A DNA stretch of 34,263 nt from an uncultured Maribacter sp. (GTDB lineage Bacteria > Bacteroidota > Bacteroidia > Flavobacteriales > Flavobacteriaceae): NCBI GenBank assembly GCA_938038975.1, contig CALHVP010000135.1:1-34263 (forward strand). The letters run 5' to 3'. The notes under the pieces were generated by a model. The model ran no database searches. It had not been told where the DNA came from and was given only the letters and a program-made list of their open reading frames with translations. Shown here piece after piece: positions 8,697-11,134 of the stretch; the stretch's first letter is position 1; each line of letters starts with the position of its first letter. Position numbers and translations under genes: made by a program.

Positions 8697-8727
8697 TTGC
8701 TAAGTCTACCTGCGAATGTTAACTTTG
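8697..8727 (+). promoter_or_regulatory. Bacteroidota-type promoter of the zapB-like/zapA unit
   Basis: TTG at 8697-8699, 20-nt spacer, TAACTTTG (TAnnTTTG) at 8720-8727, 24 nt before ATG 8752. Confidence 0.6.
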
Positions 8728-9055: not shown

Positions 9056-9352
9056 ATGTCAGATAAGCTCAAAATAAAGCTTTCCATTGCAGATAGGGTA
9101 TATCCTTTGACGATAGACCCAAGTCAAGAAGAGGGTTTAAGAAAAGCAGCCAAAAATATAGATGAATTGGCTAAGAAATTTGAGAAGAACTATGCTGTTA
9201 GAGATAAACAAGATGTACTTGCCATGTGCGCATTACAGTTTGCCTCTAAAATAGAACAGAAAGGCATAGAACAGACAGCTGGTACCAAAGAGGCCGAAGA
9301 ACGCCTAAAAGCGTTGAGCGATTTGGTACAATCAAAGCTAACTTCAATATGA
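9056..9352 (+). CDS. zapA: Cell division protein ZapA
   Basis: MSDKLKIKLSIADRVYPLTIDPSQEEGLRKAAKNIDELAKKFEKNYAVRDKQDVLAMCALQFASK, typical of ZapA. Confidence 0.88.
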   Translation: MSDKLKIKLSIADRVYPLTIDPSQEEGLRKAAKNIDELAKKFEKNYAVRDKQDVLAMCALQFASKIEQKGIEQTAGTKEAEERLKALSDLVQSKLTSI

Positions 9353-9382
9353 ACACGTTCTTTAAAATAAACTAAAGTTACT

Positions 9383-9551
9383 GCCCACATTGGTAATACC
9401 TTTTGTCAAACTCAACACTTATTTTTTTAAAAAGGGTGAGTTTAGATTGTAAAAGCAAGCCTTACTTGTATAAGGATCCTTGAGCAGTCTGTTAGCCCTA
9501 AACCTGATTACCGGAGTTTGTACAAAACTTCTCCAATGTGGGCTTTTTTTT
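9383..9551 (+). ncRNA. ssrS: 6S RNA candidate (6S-Flavo type)
   Basis: zapA-rny intergenic region. 11-bp perfect terminal stem gcccacattgg (9383-9393) / ccaatgtgggc (9533-9543) followed by T8; inner stem gtcaaactc (9405-9413) / gagtttgtac (9514-9523, one bulge); distal hairpin gcaag-cctta...taagg-atc-cttgagc (~9455-9485). Long closed rod and zapA linkage match known 6S RNA. Confidence 0.82.
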
Positions 9552-9565
9552 AAATATAAATAGAT

Positions 9566-11134
9566 ATGGATTATACAATGATTTTGATAGCTGGCATCGT
9601 AGGACTAGCAATCGGTTTTACAATAGCTAAGTTTTTGGAAAAGGGGAAAGCCTCCAAGACCATTGCTAATGCAAAAAAAGAGGCGCAACAGCTTCTTAAA
9701 GAAGCGAAGATAGATGGGGAGAGTATTAAGAAAGATAAAATTTTACAAGCGAAGGAAAAGTTTCTAGAATTAAAGTCAGAACATGAAAAAGTAATCATTG
9801 GTAAGGATAGAAAAATCAGTGAGGCTGAAAAAAGAACTAGAGATAAAGAATCACAAATAAGCAGTGAGTTGGCTAAAGGTAAAAAGCTGAACACAGATTT
9901 AGAGCAAAAGTTAAAAGAAGTAGAACACAGAAGAGAGTTTTTTGAGAAAAAGCAATCGGAGGTTGAAAAGCTTCATAATAGTCAGGTGCAGCAATTAGAA
10001 GTGATATCCGGACTTTCTGCAGATGATGCTAAAACTGAATTAATAGAAAGTTTACGAGAGACTGCTAAGTCTGATGCAATGGGGTATATTCAAACCACTG
10101 TTGAGGAAGCTAAATTAACTGCACAGCAAGAAGCCCGTAAAATTGTTATTAATACCATACAACGTATAGGAACAGAAGAAGCAGTTGAAAACTGCGTTTC
10201 TGTTTTTAATATTGAATCTGATGATGTGAAAGGTCGCATTATTGGTAGAGAAGGAAGAAATATTAGAGCTTTGGAAGCAGCTACTGGTGTAGAAATTATT
10301 GTTGATGATACTCCAGAAGCGATTATACTTTCTTGCTTTGATTCTGTTAGAAGAGAAGTAGCTCGTTTATCATTACACAAATTAGTTACAGATGGGAGAA
10401 TTCACCCAGCTCGTATTGAGGAAATTGTAAAGAAGACTGAGAAACAAATAGAGGCCGAAATTATAGATATTGGAAAACGTACAATCATTGATCTTGGGAT
10501 TCACGGATTGCATCCAGAATTAATAAAAGCTGTTGGTAGAATGAAGTATCGTTCTTCCTATGGTCAAAACCTATTGCAACACTCTAGAGAAGTTGCTAAG
10601 TTATGTGGCGTAATGGCTTCTGAATTAGGTTTAAACCCTAAAGTAGCAAAACGTGCAGGTTTATTACATGATATTGGAAAGGTTCCAAATACAGAGGCTG
10701 AGGTAGAAACACCACATGCAATTTTAGGAATGCAATGGGCAGAAAAATATGGAGAAAAACCAGACGTGTGTAATGCCATTGGGGCTCACCATGATGAGAT
10801 AGAAATGAAAACACTAATTTCTCCAATCGTTCAGGTTTGTGATGCTATTAGTGGAGCTAGACCAGGAGCAAGAAGGCAAGTTTTAGATTCTTATATTCAG
10901 CGTTTAAAGGATTTAGAGGAGATTGCATTTGGTTTTGGAGGTGTGCAAAAAGCATATGCCATACAAGCGGGTAGAGAGCTTAGAGTGATTGTAGAAAGCG
11001 AGAAGGTAAGTGATGAAAAGGCATCGCAATTGTCTTTTGAAATATCTCAAAAAATACAAACAGATATGACGTATCCAGGTCAAGTTAAAGTAACAGTAAT
11101 CCGCGAAACAAGAGCGGTTAACGTTGCAAAATAG
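9566..11134 (+). CDS. rny: Ribonuclease Y
   Basis: N-terminal TM, coiled coil, KH domain ([35 protein letters not shown]), HD domain ([16 protein letters not shown]). Confidence 0.95.

Follow-up and report, generated by a model that had tools for sequence, protein, structure and literature searches.

The window analyzed here, a stretch of 34,263 nucleotides of DNA from an uncultured Maribacter sp. (contig CALHVP010000135.1 of assembly GCA_938038975.1), contains a row of genes on the forward strand that encode a ZapB-like coiled-coil protein, the cell division protein ZapA and RNase Y, the product of rny (Table 1). The zapB-like assignment is supported mainly by the position of the gene. Between the stop codon of zapA at 9352 and the start of rny at 9566 lies a gap of 213 nt, estimated at about 210 nt in the original prediction, which had been made from the sequence alone and had placed in it a 6S RNA candidate, probably of a known class such as 6S-Flavo. 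Directly downstream of zapA, and ahead of the RNA, there is a short conserved element that resembles the boxA sites of rRNA operons.

Table 1. Features of the zapB-zapA-6S-rny locus (coordinates in the window)
Feature	Position	Strand	Remarks
Predicted Bacteroidota sigma-A promoter	8697-8727	+	TTG 8697-8699, 20 nt, TAACTTTG 8720-8727 (TAnnTTTG box)
zapB-like, coiled-coil protein, 96 aa	8752-9042	+	PF06005 ZapB, E 4.7e-4, under the curated cut-off
zapA, 98 aa	9056-9352	+	PF05164, E 4.5e-19
boxA-like element ACGTTCTTTAAAATA	9355-9369	+	Conserved, directly after the zapA stop
6S RNA (6S-Flavo), full extent	~9380-9551	+	5' end and full extent predicted
Terminal stem, 5' arm	9383-9393	+	Pairs with 9533-9543
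Closing stem, 5' arm	9401-9413	+	Pairs with 9514-9527; AACUC/GAGUU invariant
Invariant AACUCAAC	9409-9416	+	Proposed pRNA template start region; invariant in 50 sequences
Rfam 6S-Flavo core	9410-9519	+	Covariance-model match
Upper stems and apical hairpin	9433-9499	+	Fold, covariation helices 3-6
Upper pairings	9433-9437/9495-9499; 9443-9450/9484-9491; 9453-9455/9479-9481; 9460-9464/9471-9475		
Terminal stem, 3' arm	9533-9543	+	Fold and covariation in relatives
U8 tract	9544-9551	+	Presumed terminator or 3' end
rny (RNase Y)	9566-11134	+	PF12072, E 1e-34

Searching the whole window against Rfam yielded a single match at the gathering threshold, namely to the 6S-Flavo model (RF01685), all 108 positions of which are covered with a score of 104.2 bits (E 1.4e-17; gathering score, 85 bits). 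In a separate search of the gap region (241 nt), the general 6S model (RF00013) matched at full length, at 9379-9548, with 32.7 bits and an E value of 2.6e-5, below its gathering cut-off of 46.4 bits, and the Bacteroidales-1 model scored 23.7 bits; Rfam treats 6S-Flavo as a family separate from RF00013. The comparison with both 6S models that had been proposed as a check on the original prediction thus came out in favor of the class that it had named, and a 6S-Flavo RNA is found in the same place in nearly all relatives. A 6S-Flavo RNA is carried by 292 of the 301 genomes of the host family, and by 248 of its 250 good assemblies, with a single match per genome among the matches listed; the nearest named 6S sequences include several from Maribacter. 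RNA-seq has revealed 6S RNA in Flavobacterium psychrophilum (PMC9723704); in Bacteroides thetaiotaomicron, both 6S RNA and pRNAs have been detected (PMC7366714). We are highly confident that the RNA in the window is a 6S RNA (ssrS) by identity and function. The identification alone is ordinary, since the class, a global transcription regulator of bacteria that holds RNA polymerase in check, is already known and the gene is only a further member of it; as foreseen, protein-only annotation misses this RNA, and the gap that holds it is unannotated.

The predicted fold of positions 9380-9551 (-53.0 kcal/mol, z = -5.2, with none of 200 shuffled sequences as stable) is a rod with a closing stem, a large central bubble and an apical stem, which is the general shape of 6S RNAs (150-200 nt). 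The structural details that had been anticipated are all present: a perfect terminal stem of 11 bp, the arms of which, expected to lie about 140 nt apart, are separated by 139 nt, inner stems, a distal hairpin, and the terminal T8 tract. The closing stem, the element behind zapA and the zapB promoter are additions to that earlier description. The T-run is kept in nearly all relatives. The 6S end went unreported in a standard terminator scan because the loop is 139 nt long.

To count covariation, the fold predicted for the window sequence was compared with 50 aligned relatives. In this alignment, 99.3% of the cells of the terminal stem are paired, and 8 of its 11 pairs show double changes, in agreement with the covariation that a genuine stem had been expected to leave; the closing stem (helix 2) is 96.1% paired, and at pair 9407-9520, five of the 50 relatives have C-G in place of U-A. 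The AACUC/GAGUU portion of the closing stem is invariant, so that covariation neither supports nor refutes pairing there. Over the entire fold, 27 of 40 pairs display double changes, amounting to 190 cells compared with a mean of 45 in shuffles that ignore relatedness, and sliding of one strand gave at most 36 double-change cells, in a control that leans toward the fold, itself derived from one of the aligned sequences. We consider the compensatory changes in the terminal stem a stronger argument than these shuffle and slide counts. A possible switch, in which AAACUCA (9408-9414) would pair with UGAGUUU (9437-9443) in place of the closing stem, shows no covariation, is broken in several relatives, and was rejected.

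The order zapB-like gene, zapA, 6S and rny, all on one strand, was found in 121 of the 127 loci examined. Of the six exceptions, five keep zapA and L094 lacks all of these genes; the exceptions include a locus (L076) that is interrupted by a contig end. Named genomes were collected with a DNA pattern that selects for the element together with the beginning of 6S and is blind to the genes; these genomes have zapA upstream in all 111 cases and rny downstream in all 102 that could be checked. Within the family, the arrangement hardly varies, and it is seen again in remote families of the same phylum. The tie of 6S RNA to zapA in Gammaproteobacteria, on which the prediction had drawn, is on record: the order zapB-zapA-ssrS has been published for beta- and gammaproteobacteria (PMC7641849), and its conservation in both groups and in the family of the window points to an ancient connection of 6S RNA with cell division genes. 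In the small-genome relatives L105-L108, zapA and 6S are kept and rny was not found adjoining; in one of these (L107), most of the T-run is lost.

Beyond the family, sub-threshold RF00013 matches in families f17, f34, f37 and f28 (L152-L181 except L170) all lie upstream of rny; most of them are preceded by zapA- or zapB-like genes, and the four upstream proteins that were tested are Pfam ZapA. These matches probably represent true 6S genes. A full-length model, R1, was built from the 50-relative alignment; its score of 171.6 bits on the window is circular, the window being in the training alignment. R1 finds two Bacteroidales-1 loci outside its training set, L147 and L148, with 54.6 and 49.9 bits, and three genomes of family f8 (L374, L375 and L376) with 35-50 bits; an Rfam scan of L374 and L375 gave no match at E 0.01. 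The full-length model yields 6S candidates where Rfam gives none. The 6S-like RNAs of these three genomes end in a T-run and are located away from zapA and rny. On the minus strand of the window, R1 has a weak match (29 bits) that mirrors the self-complementarity of the rod.

The predicted promoter of the operon carries the flavobacterial sigma-A box TAnnTTTG (PMC9723704), which in the window is located 32 nt before zapB. Of the 50 loci, 47 have the same box in the 120 nt ahead of zapB, for the most part 31-37 nt from its start codon, and one has it in the stretch before 6S; the background is 0.06 per 100 nt. Between 6S and rny, no such box is present in the window and one was found among 47 relatives; given that the window has none there, rny is probably read from the zapB promoter. 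The simplest reading would be a single transcript for zapB, zapA, 6S and rny. About 14-15 nt (9552-9565) separate the end of the U8 tract from the start of rny, with no promoter box in between. Expression of RNase Y may therefore require transcription to continue past the 6S end.

The element ACGTTCTTTAAAATA begins a few nucleotides past the zapA stop in most loci, where the position of the promoter would place it within the transcript, and precedes the 6S 5' end by 18-25 nt, the spacing being variable. It has no second exact copy in the assembly, and the copies of this 15-mer with one mismatch lie in stretches without an Rfam match. No 16S gene was found in the assembly to which the window belongs, and the rRNA of genus relatives was therefore used for the boxA sites. 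In related genomes, the 16S leader has GTTCATTAACATATTG, or a sequence close to it, past the promoter box of the rRNA genes, and GTTCATTGACATATTG lies behind the 16S gene; boxA usually occurs in the 16S leader and in the stretch behind 16S. Scored with a matrix built solely from the rRNA boxA sites, the 6S element comes out on top among about 6,200 positions in 21 of 51 loci, which are related, so that the counts are not independent; with 300 column-permuted matrices, the mean was 0.44 and the maximum six loci ranked first. The core pattern has 5-11 matches in each of four complete genomes, several of which are rRNA sites, and the reversed pattern 3-6. The resemblance to boxA is imperfect, with T for A and A for C at two positions, and becomes weaker in genus g2; family f2 and the smallest genomes lack the element. 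Most loci of family f2 (L088-L093) instead carry the hairpin-like GGGAAATAGATTTTTTTTCCC, or a sequence close to it, between zapA and 6S. Outside Flavobacteriales, AAGTTCTTTGAAAACA, just before the 6S match of L161 (family f28), resembles boxA. Among the papers searched, none mentions boxA in connection with 6S RNA and antitermination. On this evidence, the chances that the element acts as a boxA that protects 6S from Rho appear to be evenly balanced; in that role, it would most likely recruit the Nus/S10 complex, such that the polymerase would not be stopped by Rho after the ribosomes leave.

The competing explanation that 6S has a promoter of its own, of another type, with ACGTTCTTTAAAATA representing the promoter of an alternative sigma factor and not a boxA, appears unlikely; it draws on the conservation of the element at a short distance from the 6S 5' end and, by eye, on TAnnTTTG sequences just upstream of the Bacteroidales 6S RNAs L147 and L148. 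However, TAnnTTTG is absent before 6S in 49 of the 50 loci, the distance between the element and 6S is not constant, and the same element is found in the 16S leader, downstream of the TAnnTTTG box of the rRNA promoter, and again after 16S. Very little room is left for the view that the RNA is mainly an attenuator or terminator before rny and resembles 6S incidentally, given its match to the 6S-Flavo model, the conservation of the central bubble and the compensatory base changes. This view draws on the proximity of the U8 tract to the rny start with no promoter box between them, but the RNA is kept without an adjoining rny in L105-L108, L147, L148 and L374-L376. Finally, a structural relative of 6S RNA, the mycobacterial Ms1 (PMC9130861, PMC4191392), binds sigma-free core polymerase; that the window RNA behaves in this manner and does not bind the holoenzyme is nevertheless highly improbable, considering that its sequence matches 6S models and that the 6S RNA of Bacteroides makes pRNAs, a holoenzyme activity (PMC7366714).

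We infer that the zapB-zapA transcript is the precursor from which 6S is processed, and that a boxA shields it from Rho. The fullest form of this reading, to which we give even odds, is that the 6S RNA of Flavobacteriaceae lacks a promoter of its own, is excised from a cell division operon transcript, and is protected from Rho by an rRNA-type boxA at the zapA stop. The zapB promoter would drive a zapB-zapA-6S(-rny) transcript from which 6S is cut out, with the terminal stem and the U-tract making its 3' end. The long hairpin with its central bubble would imitate an open promoter and, during slow growth, bind the RNA polymerase holoenzyme; the polymerase would release the RNA by copying a short pRNA from the invariant 5' strand of the bubble (AACUCAAC). 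In the 6S RNA of Escherichia coli, pRNAs are copied from the 5' strand of the bubble, and the corresponding strand of the window RNA would fit this role; the pRNA is proposed to lie within 5'-GUUGAGUUUGACAAAA. On the 3' strand, UAAACCUG (9499-9506) is loosely similar to TAnnTTTG, with the last UG invariant, which is a weak observation. If the full reading is correct, the output of 6S RNA would be tied to the expression of zapB and zapA and to ribosomal antitermination. Were the element ahead of 6S a real boxA, antitermination of the rRNA type would apply to one more stable RNA, and this would point to a way for an untranslated RNA to persist within an mRNA operon.

Compared with the published 6S-Flavo RNA (RF01685; Weinberg 2010, PMC2864571), the core at 9410-9519 matches the full model; the model lacks the terminal and closing stems, which in the window RNA are backed by covariation and by conservation, respectively. 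The proteobacterial 6S/SsrS RNA (RF00013) gives a full-length but weak match, and its gene, like that in the window, follows zapB-zapA (PMC7641849). In proteobacteria, however, ssrS is followed by ygfA/fau or an EVE gene, whereas rny follows 6S in the window, and a boxA-like element behind zapA, as present in the window, was not found described in the papers searched. With Bacteroidales-1 (RF01693, suggested 6S-Bacteroidales), the window RNA has in common the bubble strands AAACUCAUCA and GGAGUUU; unlike the window gene, the Bacteroidales-1 loci L147 and L148 do not adjoin zapA or rny and show TAnnTTTG just upstream. With the boxA of rRNA operons, the window element shares the core GTTCWTTRAMATA, which is common to it and to the 16S leader and spacer elements of relatives; in contrast to the rRNA sites, the candidate boxA of the window precedes a 6S RNA and stands directly after a coding gene.
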